Notes under the pieces: generated by a model | What the model was told of the DNA's origin: nothing | Database searches by the model: none | Seen by the model: only the letters and a program-made list of their open reading frames with translations | Shown: positions 5,106 through 19,541 of the stretch, one piece after another | Layout: every line of letters starts with the position of its first letter | Numbering within the stretch: position 1 is the stretch's first letter | IMG/VR virus record: IMGVR_UViG_3300033182_000045 | Span: 1 to 20,303 of that record | Direction: 5' to 3' (one strand) | DNA from: a virus | Length of the DNA: 20,303 nt | Position numbers and translations under genes: made by a program

Positions 5106-5785
5106 TGGCATACACACTTACAAATTTACAAGATGACGTTAGAGACTACACAGAAGTAGATAGTTCTGTTTTAAGTAATTCTGTTTTAAACACAATGATT
5201 AAAAATGCAGAAAACAGAATTTATAGAGATGCTGATTCTGATGACAATAGATTTTATGCTACATCAAACCTACAAACTGGAAATAGATATGTAACTATTC
5301 CATCAGATTTAAGATTTATTCGATATGCACAATTAACTGATTCATCTGGTAATCAAGTATTTTTAGAAAAAAGAGACACAAGCTTTATGGCAGAATACTA
5401 TGACACTCCAGGTACTCAATCTGGACTTCCAAAATATTATGGTAACTGGGATGCAAACTATTGGGTAGTTGCACCTACTCCAGATTCAACTTATTCAATA
5501 ACTTTAGCTTATACTAAACAACCAATTAGCTTAACTGATTCTTCTGTAAGTGCATCTGGAACTTATGTATCTAATAAATATCAGGATTTACTTTTATATG
5601 GAACTCTGGTAGAAGCATATGGATACTTGAAAGGGCCCGCAGATATGTTACAATACTACGAAGCCTCTTTCAAAAGAGCTTTACAATCGTACGCGATCGA
5701 ACAACAAGGTCGTAGACGCCGAGACGAATGGCAAGATGGGGCCATACGTACTCCTCTTAAATCTGAATCACCATCAAAATACTAA
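5105..5785 (+). CDS. phage adaptor / connector protein
   Basis: A 226-residue protein whose ATG overlaps the previous TAA (TAATG, 5103-5107). A longer in-frame reading from 5027 would run out of frame inside the preceding gene and adds non-conserved residues, so I use 5105. Key blocks are LTNLQDDVRDYTEVD, NTMIKNAENRIYRDADSDD, YATSNLQTGNRYVTIPSDL, FLEKRDTSFMAEYY, YWVVAPTPDSTYSITLAY, KYQDLLLYGTLVEAYGYLK and a basic C-terminus (RRRRDEWQDG). This strongly conserved-looking pattern is one I know from adaptor-type virion proteins of marine podoviruses, possibly the group catalogued as DUF6682. It probably forms part of the ring joining portal and tail. Codons for RGPA around 5630 use GGGCCCGC, GC-richer than the surroundings. 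Confidence 0.7.
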   Translation: MAYTLTNLQDDVRDYTEVDSSVLSNSVLNTMIKNAENRIYRDADSDDNRFYATSNLQTGNRYVTIPSDLRFIRYAQLTDSSGNQVFLEKRDTSFMAEYYDTPGTQSGLPKYYGNWDANYWVVAPTPDSTYSITLAYTKQPISLTDSSVSASGTYVSNKYQDLLLYGTLVEAYGYLKGPADMLQYYEASFKRALQSYAIEQQGRRRRDEWQDGAIRTPLKSESPSKY

Positions 5786-6244: not shown

Positions 6245-6700
6245 ATGGCTTTTGTACTTAATGATAGAGTCAAAGAGACTAGTACAACTACTGGAACTGG
6301 AACTTTTGATTTAGCTGGTGCTGAAACTGGTTTCGAGAGTTTTGTTTCTGGTGTTGGTGATGGTAATGTAACTTACTATGCTATCTCTAATGACGGAACT
6401 AATGAATTTGAAGTAGGGATCGGTACGGTTACTGATGCCACTCCTGATACATTGGCAAGAACAACAGTTATTTCATCTTCTAATTCTGACGCTTTAGTCA
6501 ATTTTTCAGCTGGTACTAAAACAGTATTTTGTACATTACCTGCATCAAGAACACCTTCTGCAGGAATGACAGCGCAAACTTTTGTTAATACTCACAACTC
6601 AACAATATCTGATGATCAAACATTAGTATCAGGAGTATTAGCAGGACCAGTAACAATTACTGGAACACAAACTGTAACAGGAACATTGGTAATTATATAA
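6245..6700 (+). CDS. tail/fibre structural protein, MAFVLNDRVKE family
   Basis: A 151-residue protein beginning MAFVLNDRVKETSTTTGTG, an opening that recurs in phage tail-fibre regions. It continues with AGAETGFESFVSGVGDGN, TYYAISNDGTNEFEVGIG and LARTTVISSSNSDALVNFSAG, and reaches a PASRTPS segment. The last 35 residues (TISDDQTLVSGVLAGPVTIT, then GTQTVTGTLVII) look like a short beta-helix or trimerising stalk of the kind that ends fibre-attachment proteins. Shine-Dalgarno GGAGA (6235-6239) precedes ATG by 5 bases. The stop overlaps the next start (TAATG). A role as an adaptor to which fibres attach is plausible from its place directly before a C1q-like fibre gene. Confidence 0.6.
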   Translation: MAFVLNDRVKETSTTTGTGTFDLAGAETGFESFVSGVGDGNVTYYAISNDGTNEFEVGIGTVTDATPDTLARTTVISSSNSDALVNFSAGTKTVFCTLPASRTPSAGMTAQTFVNTHNSTISDDQTLVSGVLAGPVTITGTQTVTGTLVII

Positions 6701-7548
6701 TGAGTAAATTAGAAGTAGATAAAATAGATCCACAATCAGGTACTAATTTAGAATTAGGTACTTCAGGAGATACAGTTACAATTCCTACAGGTGTAACTTT
6801 AGATGCATCAAATGCAACAACTTCTTTACCTGCAACTGTTGTAACGACTGATGGAACACAGACTTTAACAAATAAAAGTATTGCTGCTTCTCAGTTAACT
6901 GGAACTATTACTCCAAGTGATGGCACAGTTACTGGAGCAAAATTAAATAATGATATTATCTCTGCTCAAACAGAACTTGCTAGTGAACCAGCAGATACAG
7001 ACGAATTTTTAGTATCAGATGCTGGTACATTAAAAAGAATTGATTACTCATTAATTAAAGGTGGTGGAATTACAGTAGCAGATCAATTTAGATTAACTGC
7101 ACAAAAATCAGTTACATCAACAGGTTCAGATATTACTGCAAATTGGGAAAGAATTGATGGAAGTGGTCAAGGAACTTTAGGAAGTGGAATGACAGAAAGC
7201 TCTGGTATTTTTAGTTTTCCAGAAACAGGCATTTATTACATTGTAGTAAATTTAGGTTTCTTTGATACGACTGCTAATCAAAACGATAGCAGATATTTTG
7301 AATTTAAAATAAATGCGACTACTAACAATTCAAGTTACAACACTATTTCAAGAATGAATAGTTCTTTAAAGTACATAAGTGATCATACTTATCAAAATTT
7401 AAGTGTTTCTACTTTTTTTGATGTAACTAATACATCAACTCATAAAATAAAATTTACAGTCGAAAGTCAAAATAATACTTTTATAGCTGGTAGCACATCA
7501 CTTAACGAAAGTAACGATTTCACTTTTATAAGATTAGGAGACACATAA
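6700..7548 (+). CDS. tail fibre protein with C-terminal C1q/TNF-like domain
   Basis: A 282-residue protein in three parts. Residues 1-35 (SKLEVDKIDPQSGTNLELG, then SGDTVTIPTG) resemble the N-termini of the IPT/TIG proteins at 7848, 10953 and 11399, suggesting a shared attachment segment. Residues 36-120 form a repetitive stalk (TDGTQTLTNKSI, LTGTITPSDGTVTGAKL). Residues about 127-282 look like a C1q/TNF-type jelly roll: a Gly/Ser turn with GMTESSGIFSFPETGIYYIV, several amphipathic strands, and a closing FTFIRLGDT. Such trimeric heads are known at the tips of phage and bacterial fibres, where they bind receptors or carbohydrate. No Shine-Dalgarno is close, so initiation is probably coupled to the previous gene by TAATG. 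Confidence 0.65.
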   Translation: MSKLEVDKIDPQSGTNLELGTSGDTVTIPTGVTLDASNATTSLPATVVTTDGTQTLTNKSIAASQLTGTITPSDGTVTGAKLNNDIISAQTELASEPADTDEFLVSDAGTLKRIDYSLIKGGGITVADQFRLTAQKSVTSTGSDITANWERIDGSGQGTLGSGMTESSGIFSFPETGIYYIVVNLGFFDTTANQNDSRYFEFKINATTNNSSYNTISRMNSSLKYISDHTYQNLSVSTFFDVTNTSTHKIKFTVESQNNTFIAGSTSLNESNDFTFIRLGDT

Positions 7549-7549
7549 A

Positions 7550-7846
7550 ATGAATAGAGATTATTTTCAAGAAGCATTACACAGTTTTAATGGTGGTAAT
7601 TGGTATGGTTGGAAAAAAGAAGATGACAATGGAAATGTAATTCCTAACTCTGATCGTATGCAATACCAATATATTAAAATTATAAAAGATGGTGCAACTA
7701 TGCCAACTGAAGAAGAAGTAAATGCAAAGATACAAGAATTAAAAGATGCTGAAGCAAACGCAGAAACTAAAAAAGCATCTGGCAAACAAAAACTTTTAGA
7801 CTTAGGTTTAACCGAAGAAGAAGTGAAGGCACTAATAGGAATATAA
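7550..7846 (+). CDS. small tail-fibre-associated protein
   Basis: A 98-residue protein. The N-terminus carries an aromatic stretch (YFQEALHSFNGGNWYGWKKE), followed by a short beta region (MQYQYIKIIKDGATMPTEEE), a long charged helix (NAKIQELKDAEANAETKKAS) and a C-terminal helix-turn motif (LLDLGLTEEEVKALIG) of the kind found at the end of many phage tail-region proteins. It has no membrane segment. The Shine-Dalgarno TAGGAG (7535-7540) is written in the last codons of the C1q-like fibre gene, so the two are co-translated. It may be a fibre chaperone or a minor tail subunit; the sequence does not decide. Confidence 0.6.
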   Translation: MNRDYFQEALHSFNGGNWYGWKKEDDNGNVIPNSDRMQYQYIKIIKDGATMPTEEEVNAKIQELKDAEANAETKKASGKQKLLDLGLTEEEVKALIGI

Positions 7847-7847
7847 T

Positions 7848-8600
7848 ATGAGTGAAGTAAAAGTAAATAAAATATCACCTAGAACAGGAACCACATTTAC
7901 TATTGGTGATAGTGGTGACACGATTTCTACTGCAGGAAATATTTCTGCTGTTAATATTACAGCAACGAATTCCTTAACAGTAAATGGTGAATCTGTTACT
8001 TCTGCGAATCCAACAATCAGTTCTATTTCACCAGATACAATTACCAATGCTCAAACATCAATAACAATTACTGGAACGAATTTTGTATCAATACCAACTG
8101 TTGAAGCACAAAGTACAACAGGTATCATTGTTCCTGCAGACAGTGTGACTTTTAATAACTCAACATCACTTACTTGTAACTTTACATTAACAACAGATGG
8201 CACATATTATATTAGAATTGAAAACAATGACGGTCTAGCAGTTCGATCGACTACAGCATTATTAACGGTATCAGACGCTCCAACATGGACAACTGCTGCA
8301 GGTGATTTAGGTACTATTGCAGGTAATTTTTCTGGAACAGTTACAACGGTTGCTGCAACATCAGATTCAGCTATTACATATTCAGAGACAACAAACGTAT
8401 TAACTAACGCATCTCAAGCAAATTGCTCGCTTAATTCATCAACAGGTGCTATAACTACTACAGATTTCGGTGGTTCAAGCACCACTGCAACAACATATAA
8501 TTTTACATTAAGAGCAACTGATGCCGAAGGTCAAACAGCAGATAGAAACTTTAGTCTGACTTCTAGCTTCGGTGCAACAGGTGGGGGACAATTTAACTAA
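7848..8600 (+). CDS. IPT/TIG Ig-like domain protein, cassette copy 1
   Basis: A 250-residue extracellular-type protein without signal peptide, as expected for a virion protein. Residues 1-52 form an N-terminal segment (VKVNKISPRTGTTFTIGDSG, then SLTVNGESVTS). Residues 55-142 match an IPT/TIG Ig-like fold (TISSISPDTITNAQTSITIT, GTNF, TYYIRIENNDGLA, TALLTVSDAPTW). Residues 144-238 resemble a putative-Ig or cadherin-like repeat (SDSAITYSE, LNSSTGAITTTDFGG, YNFTLRATDAEGQTADRNFS), less canonical than in copy 2 because the Pro-Gly turn is missing. It ends GGGQFN, whose GGG GGA codons supply a purine-rich site before the next start. Paralogue of 11399-12151, same length. Likely an adhesion or spacer protein of the tail. 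Confidence 0.65.
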   Translation: MSEVKVNKISPRTGTTFTIGDSGDTISTAGNISAVNITATNSLTVNGESVTSANPTISSISPDTITNAQTSITITGTNFVSIPTVEAQSTTGIIVPADSVTFNNSTSLTCNFTLTTDGTYYIRIENNDGLAVRSTTALLTVSDAPTWTTAAGDLGTIAGNFSGTVTTVAATSDSAITYSETTNVLTNASQANCSLNSSTGAITTTDFGGSSTTATTYNFTLRATDAEGQTADRNFSLTSSFGATGGGQFN

Positions 8601-9913
8601 TGGCTAGTACATATTTAACAAGAACACCAAGTAGCACAGGTACTCAAACTAAATTTACTTTTAGTTTTTGGGTAAAAATTACAAGTGCAGGTAATGGTGC
8701 AGATAAAGCTATATTTTCTTCTGGTTTAAATTCATCAAATTATTATATGATAAGATTTACTTCTGGCGACCAATTACAAATTTTATCAAAAGACAATGCT
8801 AATAATCAAATAAACTATAATACTAATCAAATTTTTAGAGATACTAACGCTTGGTATCATATTGTTTTGGCACATGATACTACACAATCAAGTGGAAGTA
8901 GAATTAAATATTATGTTAATGGAGAACAAGTATCAAGTTTTCAATCAAGTGTAGAGCCAAGTGCAAGTGCTAATATTTTATATGTTAATGACACTACTGT
9001 TCATGCTTGGGGAAGAAGAAATTATAATTCTGATTTATATACAGATATGGTTTTATCTCATGTTCATTTTTGTGATGGTTATTCTTATCAAGCATCTGAC
9101 TTTGGTTCTACAGATAGTACAACTGGAGAATGGCAAATAAACACTTCTCCAAGTGTAACTTATGGAACTAATGGATATTTTATTCTTAAAGATGGTAATT
9201 CAGTAACAGACCAATCTGGTAATGGTAATAACTGGACAGTTTCTGCAGGTACACTTACAAATACTGAAGATTGTCCAAGCAATGTTTTTGCTACAGGAAA
9301 TCCTTTAGTTAAAGGAACTAATGGTAATTCACATGGAAATTTAAGAACAACAAGTGGTCAAAACTCATGGGAAAGTATGTGGTCTACATTAGCTTCATCT
9401 TCTGGAAAGTTTTATGCAGAATTTAGAAGAAATACTAACAATGGTTACACAATGTTTGGTGTAAGAAAAACTGAAAATATAACTACATTTGATGAAACAA
9501 CAGGTGTTGCAGGTGGAGTTGGTTATCAAAGTCATGGAAGTATTATTGATAGCACTGTTGAAATACATTCTGGTGGCTCTCCTTATGCAACATATGCAGA
9601 TGGAGATATTATAGGTGTTGCTATGGATTTAGATAATAGCAAATTATATTTTTCTAAGAATGGAACTTGGCAAAATAGTGGAGACCCAACAAGTGGTTCA
9701 ACTGGAACAGGTGCTATTTCTTTAACAGCAAATGCTATTTATCATTTTGGTTTTTGTGCTTACAATAATTCTGCTGATGCAAACTTCGGCAATGGTTACT
9801 TCGGAACAACAGCAGTATCTAGTGCAGGAACTAACGCAAGTGGAATAGGAATATTTGAATATGATGTACCAACTGGCTACACAGCTTTATCAACTAAGGG
9901 GTTAAACGAATAA
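8600..9913 (+). CDS. LamG-like + SPRY domain tail protein, cassette copy 1
   Basis: A 437-residue protein with two lectin-like folds. Residues 1-165 fit a LamG/concanavalin-like jelly roll (FTFSFWVKITS, AWYHIVLAHDTTQSSGSRIK, YYVNGEQVSSF, and the HVHFCDG strand). Residues 165-250 are a linker with YGTNGYFILKDGNSV and DQSGNGNNWTVSAG. Residues about 255-420 fit a SPRY domain (SSGKFYAEFRR, GDIIGVAMDLDNSKLYFSKN, GTWQNSGDP, ANFGNGYFG). Both folds often bind glycans or proteins, so a receptor-binding role at the tail is likely. The start overlaps the previous stop (TAATG). Paralogue of 12154-13509; the C-terminal region is the best conserved (NGYFGTTAVSSA, GIGIFEYDVPTGY). Confidence 0.7.
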   Translation: MASTYLTRTPSSTGTQTKFTFSFWVKITSAGNGADKAIFSSGLNSSNYYMIRFTSGDQLQILSKDNANNQINYNTNQIFRDTNAWYHIVLAHDTTQSSGSRIKYYVNGEQVSSFQSSVEPSASANILYVNDTTVHAWGRRNYNSDLYTDMVLSHVHFCDGYSYQASDFGSTDSTTGEWQINTSPSVTYGTNGYFILKDGNSVTDQSGNGNNWTVSAGTLTNTEDCPSNVFATGNPLVKGTNGNSHGNLRTTSGQNSWESMWSTLASSSGKFYAEFRRNTNNGYTMFGVRKTENITTFDETTGVAGGVGYQSHGSIIDSTVEIHSGGSPYATYADGDIIGVAMDLDNSKLYFSKNGTWQNSGDPTSGSTGTGAISLTANAIYHFGFCAYNNSADANFGNGYFGTTAVSSAGTNASGIGIFEYDVPTGYTALSTKGLNE

Positions 9914-9914
9914 T

Positions 9915-10949
9915 ATGGCTTATACTACAATTAATAAATCTACAGATAATTTTAATACTAAACTTTGGACAGGAACAAGTGATGCAACAACTTCTGTAAC
10001 AGGTGTAGGATTTCAACCAGATTTTACATGGATTAAAAATAGAGATGTAGCAGATGACCATATGCTTTTTGATGCTGTAAGAGGTGTTACAAAAAGATTA
10101 TTTTCAAATTCTAGTGGTGCAGAAGGAACAGACGCACAAACACTAACTTCATTTGATAGTGATGGTTTTACAACAGGTAATAGTAGAGCAACAGGTGGAG
10201 ATGCAGGTAATGATATGGTTTCATGGAATTGGAAAGCAAATGGTGCAGGTTCATCAAATACAGATGGTTCTATAACATCAACTGTATCTGCAAACACGAC
10301 AGCAGGATTTAGTATTGTGTCTTATACAGGTACAGGTTCACAACCTGCTACTGTTGGACATGGTTTAGGAGTAACACCTCAAGTAGTAATAGTAAAACCT
10401 AGAACTGATGCTCAATCATGGTGTGTATATCATGAAAGTCTAGGTAATACAAAAGTAACATATCTTGACAGTGCAAGTGCGTCAGGTGGTTCATCAGTTT
10501 GGAACAACACCTCTCCAACTTCTTCAGTTTTTACTGTAAATGATAATCAAGTTAATAGTAGTGGAATAACTTACATAGCTTATTGTTTTGCATCTAAAAC
10601 TGGTTACAGCAAGTTTGGTTCTTATACTGGTAATGGTTCTACTGATGGAACATTTATTTACACAGGATTTAAACCTGCTTGGGTTTTAATTAAAAAATCA
10701 AGTGCAGTAGAAGACTGGGCTATGTTTGACAGTACAAGAGATACACATAATGTACAATACAAACTTTTATATGCTAATAATAATAATGCTGAATACACAG
10801 GTGTTTCAGCTAGAAATGATTTTTTAAGTAATGGATTTAAAATAAGAACTACAGATAATAAAGAAAATGGTTCTGGTGGAACATACATCTACATGGCATT
10901 TGGTCAATCATTAGTAGGTTCAAATAACGTACCATGTACAGCGAGGTAA
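9915..10949 (+). CDS. 344-residue tail protein with three internal repeats, cassette copy 1
   Basis: A beta-rich protein that can be divided into three related blocks of about 98 residues (14-110, 132-228, 232-330). Each opens with a YTG or WTG turn, then GF/GL-x-P and an IK or VK strand (GFQPDFTWIKNR, GLGVTPQVVIVKPR, GFKPAWVLIKKS), an FD or YHE segment with Arg or Lys, and closes with an aromatic strand (VSWNWKA, TYIAYCFASK, TYIYMAFGQS). The end GSNNVPCTAR matches the paralogue's GTNNIPATAR. The family may be the one catalogued as DUF7483, often found beside LamG/SPRY tail genes, but I cannot confirm that. AAGGGGT (9896-9902) precedes ATG. Its final codons GCG AGG TAA carry the ribosome site for the GTG-started next gene. 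Confidence 0.65.
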   Translation: MAYTTINKSTDNFNTKLWTGTSDATTSVTGVGFQPDFTWIKNRDVADDHMLFDAVRGVTKRLFSNSSGAEGTDAQTLTSFDSDGFTTGNSRATGGDAGNDMVSWNWKANGAGSSNTDGSITSTVSANTTAGFSIVSYTGTGSQPATVGHGLGVTPQVVIVKPRTDAQSWCVYHESLGNTKVTYLDSASASGGSSVWNNTSPTSSVFTVNDNQVNSSGITYIAYCFASKTGYSKFGSYTGNGSTDGTFIYTGFKPAWVLIKKSSAVEDWAMFDSTRDTHNVQYKLLYANNNNAEYTGVSARNDFLSNGFKIRTTDNKENGSGGTYIYMAFGQSLVGSNNVPCTAR

Positions 10950-10952
10950 CTC

Positions 10953-11399
10953 GTGGCCAGTATTCTAAAAAATGACACTATCCAAAATAGTAGTGGATCT
11001 AATATAATCAACGAGTCTGCAGGAACGGTGACCATGGCGGCATCAGGTAATACCGTGACGATTCCTTCAGGTGCAACGATGACCGCTCCAGCATTATTGG
11101 TCAATGGTCAAACAGTAACTGGTAGAATATTTCCAACTGTATCAAGTATCAGTCCTACAACTGCATCAGCATCCGTTCAAACATCAATAGCAATTACAGG
11201 ATCTGGTTTTGTTGCAACACCAGTCGTTGAAGCAATATCTTCAACAGGTGCCATAAATACAGCAGATACAGTCACTTACAATAGTTCAAGTTCTTTGACT
11301 TGTAATTTTACATTGATTGCAGGCTCATATTATATTAGAGTAGAAAATAACACAGGTTTTGCAGGAAGATCTGCATCAACTTTATTAACGGTATCATAA
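10953..11399 (+). CDS. short IPT/TIG protein lacking the second Ig-like domain (GTG start)
   Basis: A 148-residue paralogue of the 250-residue IPT/TIG proteins. The N-terminal segment (ILKNDTIQNSSGSNIINESA, SGNTVTIPSGATM, LLVNGQTVTG) is closer to the 11399 protein, while parts of the IPT domain (SSLTCNFTL, SYYIRVENN) are closer to the 7848 protein, so it looks mosaic. It stops at LLTVS, exactly where both long paralogues continue into their second Ig-like domain. Start: GTG 10953, aligned with the paralogue's ATG and preceded by GAGG (10943-10946). The stop overlaps the next ATG (TAATGG). It could be a functional single-domain subunit or a remnant of the duplication; the open frame and good ribosome site favour a working gene. 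Confidence 0.65.
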   Translation: MASILKNDTIQNSSGSNIINESAGTVTMAASGNTVTIPSGATMTAPALLVNGQTVTGRIFPTVSSISPTTASASVQTSIAITGSGFVATPVVEAISSTGAINTADTVTYNSSSSLTCNFTLIAGSYYIRVENNTGFAGRSASTLLTVS

Positions 11400-12151
11400 T
11401 GGCAGGAATTTTAAAAGTAGACACAGTACAAGATCAAGACGGTAATGATATTATCCAAGAATCTGCAGGTACAGTAACAGTTGGTCAATCAGGCCAAACA
11501 GTTGCGGTTGCAGGTGGTGCTACATTATCGGTACCGACATTATTAGTAAATGGAGAATCAGTTACTGCAATTACTTTACCAACAGTTACATCTTTATCTC
11601 CTGATACAATTACAAATGCACAAACGTCAGTTACAATTACAGGAACTAATTTTGTAAACGGTGCAATAGTCAATGCAATCTCAACAACGGGTGCAATCTA
11701 CAATGCAGACACAGTTACATTTAACAGTGCAACATCAATCACAGCAGCTTTTACTTTAACTGTAGATGGCACTTATTATATTAGAGTCGAGAATCCTGAT
11801 GGATTAGCAGGAAGATCTTCAACTGCTTTACTAACGGTTTCTGATGCACCAACTTGGTCCACTGCTGCAGGTAGTTTAGGTTCTGTTGCACAAGGTGGAT
11901 CAATCAGCTTTACAGTTACGGCTACATCTGATAGTGCTGTCACTTATTCTATTGTATCTGGAGCTTTACCAACAGGTGGTAGTTTAAATAGTTCAAATGG
12001 AGCAATCACTGGAACAGAATCAGGTAGTGATACTTCAGAGACAACTTACAACTTTACAATTAGAGCAACGGATGCAGAGAGTCAGACTGCTGATAGAGCA
12101 TTCTCTATTACAGTAACAGTAGGAATTAATAATGGGGGTCAGTTTAACTAA
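11399..12151 (+). CDS. IPT/TIG + putative-Ig domain protein, cassette copy 2
   Basis: A 250-residue protein equal in length to the 7848 paralogue. Residues 1-56 are the shared N-terminal segment (ILKVDTVQDQDGNDIIQESA, LLVNGESVTA). Residues 60-147 form an IPT/TIG domain (TSLSPDTITNAQTSVTITG, GTNFVNG, TYYIRVENPDGLAGRS). Residues 150-245 are a good match to a He_PIG-type Ig-like repeat (SDSAVTYSIVSGALPTGGSL, NSSNGAITGT, TTYNFTIRATDAESQTADRA). It ends NNGGQFN, like copy 1. No clear Shine-Dalgarno is near, so initiation is probably coupled to the short IPT/TIG gene through the overlapping TAATG. Probably a tail-surface adhesion or spacer protein. Confidence 0.7.
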   Translation: MAGILKVDTVQDQDGNDIIQESAGTVTVGQSGQTVAVAGGATLSVPTLLVNGESVTAITLPTVTSLSPDTITNAQTSVTITGTNFVNGAIVNAISTTGAIYNADTVTFNSATSITAAFTLTVDGTYYIRVENPDGLAGRSSTALLTVSDAPTWSTAAGSLGSVAQGGSISFTVTATSDSAVTYSIVSGALPTGGSLNSSNGAITGTESGSDTSETTYNFTIRATDAESQTADRAFSITVTVGINNGGQFN

Positions 12152-12153
12152 TC

Positions 12154-13509
12154 ATGGCATCAACTTATTTATCAAAAACATTTAGCACACCAACAAGTTC
12201 AAAAATATTTACATTTTCTTTTTGGGTAAAAAAATCACAAGGTTCTCAAAGTGATGATATGCACATTTTTAACAATTATGTTTCTGGTTCATCAAGATTA
12301 ACTTGTGCAATAGATGGAAATGAAAATTTTAAAATAGAAAATAATAATGGTGCATATAATTTAAGATTTATAACAGATGCAGAATATAGAGATGTTAATG
12401 GTTTTTACCATTTTGTAATTTCAGTTGATACTACACAAGCTACAGAATCAAATAGAGTAAAAATTTATGTTAATGGTGTTCAAGAAACTTCATTTTCAAC
12501 ATCTACATATCCATCACAAAATGATGACATAAAAGTACCAGACAGTTCTCATACAATGTATATTGGAACTTTTACAGGTTCAGCACAATTTTGGGATGGC
12601 TCAATGGCTCATGTTCATTTTATAGATGGAACACAGTATTCAGCAAGTGACTTTGGTGAAACAGATTCTACAACTGGAATATGGAAACCTAAAACTGCAC
12701 CATCAGTTACTTATGGTACAAATGGATTCTTTTTAAAATTTGAAAACTCTGGTTCTATGGGTACAGATAGTTCTGGTAATGGAAATAACTTCACGGTTAA
12801 TGGAACATGCACACAGACAATAGATACACCTAGTAATGTTTTTGCTACTATGAATGCTTTAGATAATTATTATCCTAGTGCTACTTTTAGTAATGGTAAT
12901 ACTACAACAACATCTGGTGCTGGTAATTGGACTCCTGTTAAATCAAATTTAGGAGTATCTAGTGGAAAATGGTATTGGGAAATTAAACACTCTGCTGTGA
13001 GTTCTGGTGGTAGTTATGCAACAATAGGTATAGGCTCTAATCAAGCAACAGGAAATCAGCAAAGAGGTGGAGTTAATTCAACTGATTATAGTTATTGGTA
13101 TGCTGGAGAATTAAGAAGTAATGATTCTTTACAAATTTCAGTAAATACTTATGGAGTAGGAGATATTATTGGAATAGCATTAGATTTAGATAATAATAAA
13201 TTATATTTTTCTAAAAATGGAACTTGGCAGAATAGTGGTGATCCAACATCTGGTGCAACAGGAACTGGTGCAATGTCTATTACTGATCCAGCTTCAACAC
13301 CATTAGGTCAATATTTTGCTGAAAATGGTTTTTATGATAATACTAACACAGGAACTTTCCAAGCAAACTTCGGTAATGGATATTTCGGCACAACTGCTGT
13401 ATCATCAGCACAAAACCCAGATGACGGAATCGGGATTTTCGAATATGATGTCCCTACAGGTTACAGAGCATTATGTACTAAATCAATTAATGCACAGGAG
13501 TATAGTTAA
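12154..13509 (+). CDS. LamG-like + SPRY domain tail protein, cassette copy 2
   Basis: A 451-residue paralogue of the 8600-9913 protein. The LamG-like part covers residues 1-165 (IFTFSFWVKKSQGSQSDD, FYHFVISVDTTQATESNRVK, IYVNGVQETSF, MAHVHFIDGTQYSASDFG). The linker again carries GTNGFFLKFENSG and DSSGNGNNFTVNG. The SPRY-like part covers about 262-435 (SSGKWYWEIKHSAVSSGG, ATIGIGSNQA, GDIIGIALDLDNNKLYFSKN, GTWQNSGDP, ANFGNGYFG). It is 14 residues longer than copy 1, mainly in the SPRY loops. The ATG lies about 15 bases after a GGGGG run, so initiation may be helped by reinitiation from the previous stop. Its codons CAG GAG (13495-13500) provide the site for the next gene. Likely a receptor- or glycan-binding tail component. 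Confidence 0.7.
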   Translation: MASTYLSKTFSTPTSSKIFTFSFWVKKSQGSQSDDMHIFNNYVSGSSRLTCAIDGNENFKIENNNGAYNLRFITDAEYRDVNGFYHFVISVDTTQATESNRVKIYVNGVQETSFSTSTYPSQNDDIKVPDSSHTMYIGTFTGSAQFWDGSMAHVHFIDGTQYSASDFGETDSTTGIWKPKTAPSVTYGTNGFFLKFENSGSMGTDSSGNGNNFTVNGTCTQTIDTPSNVFATMNALDNYYPSATFSNGNTTTTSGAGNWTPVKSNLGVSSGKWYWEIKHSAVSSGGSYATIGIGSNQATGNQQRGGVNSTDYSYWYAGELRSNDSLQISVNTYGVGDIIGIALDLDNNKLYFSKNGTWQNSGDPTSGATGTGAMSITDPASTPLGQYFAENGFYDNTNTGTFQANFGNGYFGTTAVSSAQNPDDGIGIFEYDVPTGYRALCTKSINAQEYS

Positions 13510-14543
13510 TGGCACAGATAAATAAACCAGAAGATTATTTTAATACTAAACTTTATACAGGAAATGGTAGCACACAAAGTATAAGCGGAGTCAACTTCAG
13601 TCCAGATTGGGTATGGTTAAAAGGTAGAAGTGTAGCATATTCTCATGGTGTTTTTGATACAGTTAGAGGAGTATTAAAAAACCTTAAAGTAAATGGAACT
13701 GATGCTGAAGCAACATCAGCAAACACAGTAACATCATTTGATTCAGATGGTTTTACTTTAGGTTCAGAAGCTGGTTTTAATGAAAATACTTCTACTTTTG
13801 TTTCATGGTCATGGAAAGCTGGTGGCACAGCATCATCAAACAACGATGGAAGCATAACCTCAAGTGTTTCTGCTAATACTACTGCTGGATTTAGTATTGT
13901 GTCTTATACAGGAAATGCTACTGCTGGTGCAACAGTTGGTCATGGACTTGGTGTAAAACCATCAATGATGATAATTAAAACTAGAGAGAGTGCTGGAAAT
14001 TGGGTTGTTTTTCATGGCACACAACCAGCTACAAAATATATAGAGTTAAATAATACAGGTACATTAGGTACTTCAACTGCACCTTTTAATGATACAGAGC
14101 CTACTTCAAGTGTATTTACTCTTGGAACATGGAGTAACACAAATGATAATGGTAATGGTATGATTGCCTACTGCTTCGCAGAGAAAAAAGGCTACAGCAA
14201 GTTTGGTTCTTATGTTGGGAATAATAATGATGATGGAGCATTTGTTTATACAGGTTTTAAACCAGCTTTTGTTTTAATTAAAATTATAGATACTCAAACT
14301 GATAATTGGATTATGCAAGATAATAAAAGAAACACATCTAATTTATCAACAAGTCAAAGATTAAGAGCCAATTCTAGTGGTGCTGAATTTTCTTCTAGTA
14401 ATGAAATAGATTTATTATCCAATGGTTTTAAAGTTCATGGTGCTGATGGAGAAATTAATGGTTCTGGTGCATCATATATCTACATGGCATTTGCCGAACA
14501 GCCCCTAGTTGGAACTAATAACATCCCAGCCACTGCGAGGTAG
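13509..14543 (+). CDS. 344-residue tail protein with three internal repeats, cassette copy 2
   Basis: Paralogue of 9915-10949 with exactly the same length. The same three blocks are visible: NFSPDWVWLKGRSVAYSHGV, then FDTVRGVLKNL and VSWSWKAGG; GLGVKPSMMIIKTRESAGNW and MIAYCFAEKKGYSKFGSY; GFKPAFVLIKIIDTQTDNW, LLSNGFKVHG and SYIYMAFAEQ. It closes PLVGTNNIPATAR. The most strongly conserved stretch between copies is SITSxVSANTTAGFSIVSYT, which links blocks 1 and 2. Shine-Dalgarno CAGGAG (13495-13500) is 8 bases before ATG, and the ATG overlaps the previous TAA. The stop is TAG, one of four in the window, and the preceding GCG AGG codons serve the GTG start at 14546. Probably a tail appendage subunit working with the LamG/SPRY partner. 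Confidence 0.65.
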   Translation: MAQINKPEDYFNTKLYTGNGSTQSISGVNFSPDWVWLKGRSVAYSHGVFDTVRGVLKNLKVNGTDAEATSANTVTSFDSDGFTLGSEAGFNENTSTFVSWSWKAGGTASSNNDGSITSSVSANTTAGFSIVSYTGNATAGATVGHGLGVKPSMMIIKTRESAGNWVVFHGTQPATKYIELNNTGTLGTSTAPFNDTEPTSSVFTLGTWSNTNDNGNGMIAYCFAEKKGYSKFGSYVGNNNDDGAFVYTGFKPAFVLIKIIDTQTDNWIMQDNKRNTSNLSTSQRLRANSSGAEFSSSNEIDLLSNGFKVHGADGEINGSGASYIYMAFAEQPLVGTNNIPATAR

Positions 14544-14545
14544 CC

Positions 14546-15379
14546 GTGTTTTTTGGTGCAACTTCCTTTGCAGCAGCACCCTTCTCAGATGTAGGGTTCA
14601 ATCCAAATGCATTTGTTAATGTATTAGGTTCACAGATTAATCAATCTAATAATACCGTTGTTGTACTTGGTAAGGCACTTGTTTTACCTACAGGAAGTCA
14701 AGCTAATTTAAGTATTGGTAATTTACAAGTAGCAGATGTTATTGGTGTAGATGGAATTGCAACTGCATTATCTACAGGAACCGTTACGGTTGCTGCAGGG
14801 GCCGATGTCAGTGTTACAGGAAACCAGGCAAACTTTACAACAGGTACAGTTAATGTAGCAGATGTAGTTGGGGTATCTGGTAATAGAGTTAATTTAACAA
14901 CAAACGATGTAACCACAACTGCAGCTGCAAACATTTCACCTACTGGATCAAGAATTAATTTAGATACAGGAACTGTTACATTTAAATTTATATATTCTGT
15001 TACAGGATCTGGTGTCAATATTGCTGATGGAACTGTTACTACAACAGCGGATGCAAATGTATTACCAACAGGATCAAGAGTTAATACAGACACAGGTGAT
15101 GTCACAGTTGTTGCAGATGCAAATATTAGTGTTACAGGAAATAGAGTTGAAATTGCATTAGGTAATGTAACTACAAAAGCAAATGCGACAGCAATTGTTA
15201 CAACAAATAGACAAAATTTATCTACAGGAACCGTTGTTGTTCAAGCAAAAGCAACAGTATTACCTGCAGGTAGCGGTTTAGAAATTGGTACAAGTATGAT
15301 AAACGTTAAAAAATGGGATGGTATTGTACCTGGTGCCACTCAAGAATGGGAGCCAGTGCAAACGTCACTAGGTAGTTAA
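14546..15379 (+). CDS. tandem-repeat tail protein, about eleven 21-residue repeats (GTG start)
   Basis: A 277-residue protein. Residues 1-20 (FFGATSFAAAPFSDVGFNP) match the N-terminus of the next gene. Residues about 26-250 are a chain of roughly ten to eleven repeats of about 21 residues with the pattern TGxRxNxxTGxVTxxAxA, for example SPTGSRINLDTGTVT, LPTGSRVNTDTGDVT and SVTGNRVEIALGNVT. The C-terminus has WxxIxPxATxxWxP, also shared with the next gene. Regular Gly-Asn turns and alternating Val/Thr suggest a beta-solenoid or elongated fibre shaft. It starts at GTG 14546 just after GCGAGG (14535-14540) at the end of the previous gene. A tail fibre or spike role is inferred from architecture and context. 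Confidence 0.65.
   Translation: MFFGATSFAAAPFSDVGFNPNAFVNVLGSQINQSNNTVVVLGKALVLPTGSQANLSIGNLQVADVIGVDGIATALSTGTVTVAAGADVSVTGNQANFTTGTVNVADVVGVSGNRVNLTTNDVTTTAAANISPTGSRINLDTGTVTFKFIYSVTGSGVNIADGTVTTTADANVLPTGSRVNTDTGDVTVVADANISVTGNRVEIALGNVTTKANATAIVTTNRQNLSTGTVVVQAKATVLPAGSGLEIGTSMINVKKWDGIVPGATQEWEPVQTSLGS
14621..15295 (+). repeat. coding tandem repeats of about 63 bp
   Basis: Ten to eleven degenerate units of about 21 codons. The repeat is clear at the protein level (TGxRxNxxTGxVTxxA). At DNA level only short parts recur, such as ACAGGAACCGTT (14776 and 15226 regions), so the units have diverged and instability from slippage is probably limited. Confidence 0.6.
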
Positions 15380-15381
15380 TT

Positions 15382-15633
15382 ATGTTTTTTGGAGCAACCA
15401 CATTTGCAGCAGCACCTTTTGCAGGAGTCGGTATTGTTAATATTACCGTTCAACCAACTGGTAATCAAATAAACACGGCTATTGGTAATGTTCAAGTCGA
15501 TTTAAATACTCCTGTTAATGTTACAGGTAATCAAATAAACCTTGCAACTGGTACCGTTTCTGTGATATCATGGATCCCGATAGATCCGAACGCAACAGGA
15601 ATTTGGATACCAATAGATCCAGATAACCCATAG
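15382..15633 (+). CDS. short paralogue of the 14546 repeat protein, two repeats
   Basis: An 83-residue protein with the same head (FFGATTFAAAPFAGVGI) and tail pattern (SWIPIDPNATGIWIPIDP) as the 277-residue protein before it, but only about two of the 21-residue repeats (VQPTGNQINTAIGNVQV, NVTGNQINLATGTVSV). The frame is intact. The ribosome site is weak (AGGT, 15371-15374), while its TAG stop is embedded in TAGGAG, the Shine-Dalgarno of the next gene. It may be a short version of the same fibre subunit, or the residue of a duplication followed by repeat loss. Head and tail conservation suggest both ends matter for assembly. Confidence 0.6.
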   Translation: MFFGATTFAAAPFAGVGIVNITVQPTGNQINTAIGNVQVDLNTPVNVTGNQINLATGTVSVISWIPIDPNATGIWIPIDPDNP

Positions 15634-15641
15634 GAGAATAA

Positions 15642-16361
15642 ATGGCATCAAGTACGTCAAATGATTTAAAATTAGAACTAATTACTACAGGTGAAAAATC
15701 TGGTACATGGGGTACCATTACTAATACAAATTTACAGATCTTAGAACAAGCTGCATCTGGATATTTATCTCTAGCAGTAGGTTCAGCTGATGTAGCATTA
15801 TCTTTAGCTAATTATGCAACATCAAATGGTAAAAATTTATATTACAAATTAACTGGAACTTTAACTGCAAATAGAACGGTGACTATGCCAGACACTGCAG
15901 AAAGAGTATTTATTGTAGAAGATGCAACAGACAGATCATCTTCTAGTTTTACATTAACTGTTAAAACAGTATCAGGGACAGGTTTAACTTTACCAGTTGG
16001 CTCTACAACAGTATTATATTCTGATGGTACAAACATCACAGGTAAATTACAAACTAAAGGGTACATCACACCTTCTGCAACTTACACAGCAGTCAATGGC
16101 GATCAAGTTTTAGTAGATACTTCTGGAGGTGGTATTGGTGCTCCAGTTACAATTAACTTACCAGCATCTCCATCAGTAGGTGATGAAGTACATTTCATAG
16201 ATTCAGGTGCAAACCTTGCATCTAACAATTTAACAATCGGAAGAAATGGATCTAATATTTTAGGATCCGCTTCTGATCTAACTGTTTCAACAAACGCAGC
16301 GGCGTTTACATTAGTCTATGTTAATGCAACAAGAGGCTGGGCATATAAAGATAACATATAG
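15642..16361 (+). CDS. tail fibre / virion structural protein
   Basis: A 239-residue protein opening MASSTSNDLKLELITTGEKS, then GTWGTITNTNLQILEQAASG. This N-terminus is very frequent in tail-fibre genes of marine phages and probably anchors the protein to the tail. The rest is beta-rich, with two similar halves: residues 60-130 (TGTLTANRTVTMPDTAERVF, SSSSFTLTVKT, TVLYSDGTNITG) and 145-239 (NGDQVLVDTSGG, PVTINLPASPSVGDEVHFID, NNLTIGRNGSNILG, TLVYVNATRGWAYK). The second half resembles the common fibre segment in which a flat carbohydrate-like surface is built from Asn/Thr loops. The TAG of the previous gene forms part of its Shine-Dalgarno TAGGAG (15631-15636). Confidence 0.65.
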   Translation: MASSTSNDLKLELITTGEKSGTWGTITNTNLQILEQAASGYLSLAVGSADVALSLANYATSNGKNLYYKLTGTLTANRTVTMPDTAERVFIVEDATDRSSSSFTLTVKTVSGTGLTLPVGSTTVLYSDGTNITGKLQTKGYITPSATYTAVNGDQVLVDTSGGGIGAPVTINLPASPSVGDEVHFIDSGANLASNNLTIGRNGSNILGSASDLTVSTNAAAFTLVYVNATRGWAYKDNI

Positions 16362-18321: not shown

Positions 18322-19541
18322 TGGCAACTTTATATGATTTAGCGATGCAGTATCTGGCACAAGCCTTACCAGATGGTAAAATATTTCCTGATACTATTCC
18401 ACCATTAGTGCCACCAGCAGAAGATGAAGATACACCAGCACAACCAGGAACTCCTGTACAAGGAATAATTAATACTGGTGCAGCTGATGGTTTTAGTGTT
18501 TACAATCCTGATCCAAATAGATTAAGAACTAAAGATGACTACAGCCCATATGCTTATAGACAAGCAATGGCAAAAAGTGGTGTAGGCATACCTTCTGGTA
18601 TATTGGCAGATTCTTCGTATCTATATCCTGAAAATAAATTTTCAGGTATTTTAAATGTGATTCCTGGAATAGGCGCAGCTAAAAGAGTTGCAGAATTTTT
18701 TAAAGATAAAATTCCCGTAAATCCAAGAGCAAGATTAGAAAATGAATTATTAGGTTCTGGTATTATGTTAGATGATATTGGAAGAGTTGTAAGTAATGAT
18801 TACAATACTGCAGCAGGTATCATGGCTGGATATAATGCAGCTAAAATAACTGATGAAACTTTTGATAAAAGAAGAGCAAGAATTCAAAAAACAATTTCAG
18901 AAAAAAGAGCAAAAGGTTTAGATACTTCTGTTTTAGAAAATAGATTAGATTTATTAGATGAAGCACAAGATTTATTTGGTGGGGCTAGAACTAGAACTAA
19001 AGATATATTAGCAGAAGAATATAAAAAAGATCCTAAGTATCAATTTACAGGACCAGATGTTCAAGGAGATTTAACTTTCCCATCTACATATAATGAAGAC
19101 GACGAAGATGAAACATTAGAAGAAATACTAAGATCACAAATAACAGGAGCTCCTATTTCTTTTGGTGGTTTCCCAGGTTATGGAGTACCACCTGCTTCAG
19201 GTTTATCAGTTGCTCCAGGAGCTGTTATTGATAGAGGTTTAGCTGTTGCTCCAGGAGCTGTTATTGATAGAGGTTTAGCTGTTGCACCAGGTGCGGTTAT
19301 TGATCAAGGTTTATCAGTTGCGCCAGGCGGTATAATGGATATTGGTGACACAGCTGATTTTGCATACACTACAACAACACCTAAAACAATTAATATAACT
19401 AATCCATATCATGGTGGAAGCGGTGGAATACACAGCGGAGGCGGCGGAGGTTTTGATACTTCAAGTGCAGATAAAGCAGGAACATCAGCAGGTAGTGGTC
19501 AATTTTCACCTAAAACAAGCAGAGGAAGATCAGGTTATTAA
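18321..19541 (+). CDS. probable internal virion / ejection-type protein with 12-residue repeats
   Basis: A 406-residue protein whose ATG overlaps the previous stop. Residues 1-45 contain a short helix (LYDLAMQYLAQAL) and an acidic, Pro-rich linker (PPLVPPAEDEDTPAQPGT). Residues 110-235 are helical and charged (VIPGIGAAKRVAEFFKDK, IQKTISEKRAKGLDTSVLEN, RLDLLDEAQDLFGG). An acidic patch follows (NEDDEDETLEE), then four copies of GLxVAPGAVIDR at residues 294-341. The C-terminus is Gly-rich (YHGGSGGIHSGGGGGFDTSS) and ends in a basic SPKTSRGRSGY. It follows the gp10-like gene directly, where podoviruses often carry proteins injected with the DNA. The helical and disordered mix suits that, but no lysozyme or other enzymatic motif is visible, so the role is inferred. 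Confidence 0.55.
   Translation: MATLYDLAMQYLAQALPDGKIFPDTIPPLVPPAEDEDTPAQPGTPVQGIINTGAADGFSVYNPDPNRLRTKDDYSPYAYRQAMAKSGVGIPSGILADSSYLYPENKFSGILNVIPGIGAAKRVAEFFKDKIPVNPRARLENELLGSGIMLDDIGRVVSNDYNTAAGIMAGYNAAKITDETFDKRRARIQKTISEKRAKGLDTSVLENRLDLLDEAQDLFGGARTRTKDILAEEYKKDPKYQFTGPDVQGDLTFPSTYNEDDEDETLEEILRSQITGAPISFGGFPGYGVPPASGLSVAPGAVIDRGLAVAPGAVIDRGLAVAPGAVIDQGLSVAPGGIMDIGDTADFAYTTTTPKTINITNPYHGGSGGIHSGGGGGFDTSSADKAGTSAGSGQFSPKTSRGRSGY
19200..19343 (+). repeat. four tandem 36-bp coding repeats
   Basis: Units 19200-19235, 19236-19271, 19272-19307 and 19308-19343 encode GLSVAPGAVIDR, GLAVAPGAVIDR, GLAVAPGAVIDQ and GLSVAPGGIMDI. Units 1 and 2 differ by only one codon (TCA versus GCT). Units 3 and 4 have changes mostly at third positions. 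The gradient fits recent expansion at the 5' side. Confidence 0.9.

Follow-up and report, generated by a model that had tools for sequence, protein, structure and literature searches.

We have analyzed a 20.3-kb virus contig from IMG/VR (record IMGVR_UViG_3300033182_000045, hereafter the window), a fragment of its genome, that carries two IPT–LamG/SPRY–DUF7483 gene cassettes arranged head to tail between positions 7848 and 14543. All the genes of interest are on the + strand and nearly touch each other. The window most likely derives from a marine, SAR11-type pelagiphage similar to HTVC023P and HTVC027P, because its major capsid protein shares 88% identity with the one of HTVC027P and a 3.1-kb stretch matches this phage at 76.7% DNA identity. 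The HTVC023P-type group is defined by PolA (PMC9599517), and the assignment made here uses the capsid protein and DNA matches only, PolA lying outside the 20-kb record.

Genes and domains of the cassette locus

A preliminary description of the region had reported a tandemly duplicated three-gene adhesin cassette, and the gene order, strand, protein lengths (250/250, 437/451 and 344/344 residues) and coordinates that it gave for the two copies were right. Its gene list was incomplete, missing a 148-aa IPT/TIG gene located between the cassettes, and the triple-repeat protein of 344 aa, which it had not assigned to any known family, is DUF7483 of Pfam (PF24299, E ~1e-126). Three types of N-terminal motif, defined in this analysis, are found in the proteins that we call anchors: PQ (VDKIxPQSGT), PR (VNKISPRSGT) and QD (ILKVDTIQDQ). 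The places where these anchors are predicted to attach are referred to as sockets. The genes of the locus are as follows:

6700..7548, + strand: socket-1 unit, 282 aa; PQ-type anchor EVDKIDPQSGT; C-terminal part weakly TNF/C1q-like (PF00229, E 0.0049, under the cut-off)
7550..7846, + strand: 98-aa gene after the socket-1 protein, possibly a fibre assembly helper
7848..8600, + strand: IPT_A (putative socket 2), 250 aa; PR-type anchor KVNKISPRTGT, Ig-like shaft, terminal GGGQFN
8600..9913, + strand: LamG/SPRY_A, lectin-like tip protein, 437 aa, terminal TKGLNE
9915..10949, + strand: DUF7483_A, 344 aa, start MAYTTINK
10953..11399, + strand: IPT_x, 148 aa, GTG start; QD-type anchor and TIG domain only, with no tip genes of its own
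11399..12151, + strand: IPT_B (putative socket 3), 250 aa; QD-type anchor ILKVDTVQDQDGN, Ig-like/He_PIG shaft, terminal GGQFN
12154..13509, + strand: LamG/SPRY_B, lectin-like tip protein, 451 aa, terminal NAQEYS
13509..14543, + strand: DUF7483_B, 344 aa, start MAQINKP
14546..15379, + strand: DN277, repeat protein, downstream syntenic border, GTG start
15382..15633, + strand: DN83, downstream syntenic border

Since the gene at 6700-7548 also has an N-terminal anchor motif, the locus would comprise three mounted units rather than two.

Both DUF7483 copies matched the family profile far above its cut-off of 27 bits (420 and 431 bits, over model positions 1-327 and 1-330 of 330). The fold calls made previously stood for LamG in both copies (Laminin_G_3, PF13385, 56.8 and 48.3 bits against a cut-off of 27.6) and for SPRY (PF00622, cut-off 26.3) in copy B alone, with 37.8 bits and E 2.3e-9; SPRY in copy A fell under the cut-off (19.7 bits, E 9.5e-4). 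As to the IPT/TIG call, He_PIG (PF05345) was above the Pfam cut-off in IPT_B only and TIG (PF01833) in IPT_x only; IPT_A gave weak Pfam matches only, yet it is 60% identical to IPT_B. The AlphaFold2 model of DUF7483_B (predicted local distance difference test score, pLDDT, 93.4; predicted template modelling score, pTM, 0.92) was compared with solved structures and no clear relative was found (best Foldseek E 1.8e-3 with TM 0.17; highest VIA Z score 5.5, covering 65 residues), although such weak and partial matches do not prove a new fold. The protein contains three internal repeats (~11-104, 126-224 and 228-333) of ~95-105 residues with 21-27% mutual identity, and in the viral library the family is present as a domain of larger proteins. 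LamG_B was modelled with a pLDDT of 88, its SPRY half resembling the SPRY domain of Ash2L (Foldseek E 1.5e-10).

Anchors, tips and gene junctions in related phages

We collected ~400 loci from six scans of IMG/VR and selected isolate genomes, and searched their open reading frames with the profile of each family. Versions with one, two and three cassettes, all those that the preliminary description had envisaged, were found at the same place, between the genes U143/U151 and DN/G239. The 21 spanning loci found with cassette queries, a set biased towards cassette presence, included 6 with one, 8 with two and 7 with three cassettes. Free of this bias, there were only two spanning loci, L020 without any cassette and L050 with two. 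The same syntenic slot holds, then, from zero to three cassettes, and a duplicated whole cassette can hardly be called unusual, as had been proposed, since two or three copies are common in relatives. In L020 the G239 and SP3287 proteins are 96% and 88% identical to those of the window, yet other modules occupy the site. In this locus as well as in L064 and L065, large anchor-like proteins (~370-495 aa) and a series of ~160-210-aa genes replace the cassettes between U151 and DN, while the downstream genes are closely similar. Among isolated phages, HTVC103P and HTVC104P each carry a pair of cassettes in the tail region as well, with different surrounding genes.

The comparison with the four closest relatives (L025, L129, L238 and L214) at the same positions separated conserved from variable genes. 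U143, U151, G239, SP3287, IPT_x and IPT_B were mostly 74-99% identical, the exception being one partial G239 match at the contig end of L214. The values for IPT_A were 58-85%, for DUF7483 51-57% and for LamG only 39-54%. In addition, the anchors follow a fixed order along the genome. Among 43 loci, related by descent and filtered for distinct N-termini, the order PQ, then PR, then QD was kept in all the ordered pairs of different types (37/37). We consider this apparent ordering of the sockets the strongest new result of the analysis. Behind each anchor there is either LamG plus DUF7483 or another gene set. In the window PQ comes with the weakly TNF/C1q-like protein and the 98-aa gene, PR with cassette A, and QD appears twice, the second time with cassette B. 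When cassettes of different genomes were compared by socket (the 56 with a motif), identities for the same versus a different socket were 63 and 55% for the C-terminal part of IPT, 42 and 40% for LamG and 48 and 47.5% for DUF7483; for the N-termini they were 68 and 33%, a circular figure because the motif itself defines the class.

The cassette is a compact arrangement. DUF7483 comes directly after LamG in 272 of 304 full LamG genes, most of the others being at contig ends, intergenic gaps are mostly of -1 to +9 nt, and natural LamG-DUF7483 fusion proteins exist (for example in L212, L239 and L252; phrog_19943). Because of this fixed, tight arrangement and the fusions, the proposal that the three genes form one functional unit, presumably one appendage, is a reasonable one. 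It is not, however, a strictly co-inherited block, given that single genes have been reassorted: between L264 and L275 the identities are 0.99 for IPT and LamG and 0.69 for DUF7483, and between L128 and L267 they are 0.46, 0.41 and 0.75, respectively.

The gene ends are conserved. The usual end of an IPT protein is (G/S/A)GQFN; most LamG proteins start with MASTY or MANTY, and their ends are TKGLN, (Y/F)G or QEY/EEY; DUF7483 starts mostly with MAYTTINK, in a minority with MAQINKP, and has a conserved TAR end. A LamG end of the QEY/EEY type was followed by a MAQI-type DUF7483 start in 20/20 cases and otherwise in 0/165, a match that adjacency alone could explain, as neighbouring DNA ends are linked anyway. 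We also considered orthogonal end tags within a genome; the end-tag class differed between copies in 26 of 38 genomes versus 21.6 expected (P 0.07), which is suggestive only, and the idea was dropped.

In HTVC200P (L005, MH598801.1) there is a 58-nt inverted repeat, 95% matched, at 5419-5476 and 6952-7009, corresponding to two LamG-end/DUF7483-start junctions and enclosing a LamG gene that sits between two DUF7483 genes of opposite strand. Inversion of the segment would connect the same LamG to the other DUF7483, and this might be a tip switch or a one-off recombination; the repeat looks like a sign of recombination at the LamG-DUF7483 junction. A diversity-generating retroelement is a less likely source of the variation: reverse transcriptase (PF00078) gave no match in the ten similar genomes or records that were searched, three of them complete isolate genomes, the record of the window itself being just a 20-kb fragment.

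Some neighbouring genes deserve mention. The 98-aa gene at 7550-7846 is 91.9% identical in DNA to the 35-kb pelagiphage HTVC034P. At the sensitivity used, this phage has only ~1% of the window in common, which suggests a recent transfer between phage groups. Small genes of ~95-140 aa also come after the non-cassette tips of relatives. IPT_x, the tip-less QD-type anchor, is 84-93% conserved in the nearest relatives and may be an adaptor or a spare socket. The DN277 and DN83 pair (14546-15633), which flanks the cassettes in most spanning relatives, has a common start (MFFGAT.FAAAPF) and short repeats of the G(S/N)QIN..TG.V type. Farther away, at 19199-19342, four 36-nt tandem repeats encode units of the GL(A/S)VAPGAVID type within a 406-aa gene that has few relatives.

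Proposed organization and alternative explanations

The matching PHROGs label their members mostly as tail fiber protein or virion structural protein. In the T7-like pelagiphage HTVC011P, a fibre with the N-terminal domain Phage_T7_tail (PF03906) carries an IPT part towards its C-terminus and is followed by LamG and DUF7483. From this architecture, the IPT part is most likely the distal shaft of a tail fibre, with LamG/SPRY and DUF7483 acting at its end. We consider it rather probable that the region is a modular adhesion locus. Its consecutive genes would encode a set of parallel tail appendages, each with a conserved anchor and with lectin tips that can be exchanged. An appendage would start with an anchor protein attached to the virion by its N-terminus, and the motif of this anchor is specific of its place, in the order PQ, PR and QD. 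The anchors of cassettes A and B would extend as an Ig-like shaft (IPT/TIG, He_PIG), and on its distal end LamG/SPRY and DUF7483, two separate, hypervariable and lectin-like proteins, would most likely assemble. These tip proteins most likely bind structures of the host surface, glycans perhaps among them, so that they may act on host range. The tips would diversify and swap between phages by recombination at the conserved gene junctions and conserved islands, while the anchors stay. With exchangeable tips on fixed anchors, one genome could combine two or three distinct binding specificities; the earlier proposal of two receptor specificities is plausible in this respect, because copies A and B are strongly diverged. 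A more elaborate version is only tentative. In some of the abundant pelagiphages of the ocean, the tail would have several addressable sockets in a set order, each recognized by an N-terminal address of its own and holding interchangeable LamG/SPRY plus DUF7483 tips or other heads. End tags would keep each LamG with its own DUF7483, giving a combinatorial multi-receptor display built by recombination.

The preliminary description saw the two cassettes as copies made by tandem duplication within this genome, whose later divergence gave either a heteromeric fibre or two receptor specificities. The equal gene order, the near-equal lengths and an identity far beyond chance (IPT 60%, E 3e-83; LamG/SPRY 45%, 8e-102; DUF7483 54%, 7e-113) would fit with it. 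The DNA blocks shared by A and B, most of them of 56-141 nt at ~72-81%, are real as well, but they are conserved islands of the families that L025 and L129 have in common with the window to an equal or higher degree, and therefore are no proof of recent duplication. Divergence within genomes matches that found between phages: over 54 within-genome pairs, identities were 39.1% within versus 40.0% between for LamG, 47.1 versus 46.4% for DUF7483 and 55.7 versus 54.2% for IPT. The approximately unbiased (AU) test rejected a clade of A plus B for IPT (p 5e-8) and LamG (p 3e-4), and IPT_A and IPT_B each clustered with the same-position anchors of relatives, so that both have positional orthologues in other phages. 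Unrelated phylogenies of the two cassettes, which had been named as evidence of independent acquisition, were thus found for IPT and LamG. Not so for DUF7483, for which the sister relationship was not rejected (p 0.66) and copies within a genome were slightly more alike than shuffled ones (47.1 versus 45.0%), pointing to possible in-genome copying or conversion of this gene; in the trees of DUF7483 and LamG the terminal branches are long and well-supported forks are few. Altogether, a recent tandem duplication is rejected for IPT and LamG, any duplication would probably be ancient and predate many of the relatives, and we regard the origin by in-genome duplication as unlikely.

It is quite unlikely, too, that all six proteins belong to a single large heteromeric fibre, A and B being interleaved, instead of making separate appendages. 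The tip-less anchor IPT_x, next to IPT_B, could be a joint subunit of such a fibre, but one-cassette phages are common, every cassette has its own anchor motif, and the types of LamG end and DUF7483 start match within the cassette, with the reservation about adjacent ends given above. LamG, SPRY and Ig-like folds also decorate the capsids and necks of other phages. The tips might accordingly decorate the virion, for example as capsid or neck fibres binding particles or other non-receptor surfaces, and one matching PHROG is indeed classed under head and packaging. We give this little credit: the IPT part is found C-terminally in a T7-type tail fibre, and the hypervariability, apparent in our close-relative comparison and in published data (PMC10504331), suggests an arms race.

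Several observations weigh against the modular adhesion locus itself, beginning with the DUF7483 results given above. The motif types cover 56 of 185 cassettes, and other lineages, such as HTVC103P and HTVC104P, have other anchors. The socket-specificity of LamG is small but above shuffles, which indicates that tip exchange is not free, and part of the tip variation could have arisen by rapid divergence in place and not by exchange. The global correlation between LamG and DUF7483 (rho 0.53) is mostly genome background; matching of partners beyond it is weak, the observed correlation being reached in 43 of 1000 within-genome swaps, and no such matching was detected between DUF7483 and IPT with these swaps. 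We consequently discarded the idea that LamG and DUF7483 evolve strictly together, as one unit. Finally, the analysis came across no proteomics or structure for any of these virions.

Comparison with known systems

Although SAR11 bacteria and their phages are dominant in the surface ocean, almost nothing is known of the receptors and adsorption machinery of these phages. If the proposed organization is true, the locus identifies likely receptor-binding proteins of SAR11 phages, one phage may show several specificities in parallel, and host range becomes testable from sequence, by which tip occupies which socket. Earlier work describes hypervariable lectin genes of pelagiphages and, for other phages, multi-receptor-binding complexes (PMC10504331, PMC3909814, PMC11414711). 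A search of the open-access literature, which leaves out most subscription journals, gave no account of LamG-DUF7483 cassettes repeated on ordered anchors, and the name DUF7483 was absent from the open-access literature searched, including the paper on Skadi-1 (PMC10504331).

This phage (Polarivirus skadi) and other HTVC010P-type pelagiphages have the same SPRY/LamG and DUF7483 pair behind a tail fibre gene (PMC10504331). A hypervariable region was detected in Skadi-1 from global viromes at 13,646-15,713 (PMC10504331), and it overlaps the SPRY/LamG gene (14,408-15,730) and the DUF7483 gene (13,353-14,408); parallel specificities would agree with it. Unlike the window's group, with two or three cassettes on ordered anchors and genomes of ~57-59 kb, Skadi-1 has one cassette and a single tail fibre. 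The isolates HTVC103P and HTVC104P share the presence of two IPT-LamG-DUF7483 cassettes in the tail region but differ in the anchors and in having two more genes (~430-440 and 106 aa) between the cassettes. The fusions, including phrog_19943, keep the same domain order in one polypeptide instead of separate genes.

The branched complex of tailspikes TSP1-4 of the Ackermannviridae also has several receptor-binding proteins from neighbouring genes, in which the N-terminal structural parts are conserved, the C-terminal tips vary and exchange takes place by recombination at conserved ends (PMC11414711). Here too we found multiple proteins with conserved N-terminal parts and variable, predicted receptor-binding tips, the anchors being separate genes from the tips. 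No gp10-like XD domains appeared among the Pfam and PHROG matches of the anchor proteins, although sequence search alone could miss such domains. The Ackermannviridae tailspikes are single chains, whereas in the window the tips are separate LamG/SPRY and DUF7483 proteins. By analogy, the locus would work like these branched receptor-binding complexes, built from different parts.

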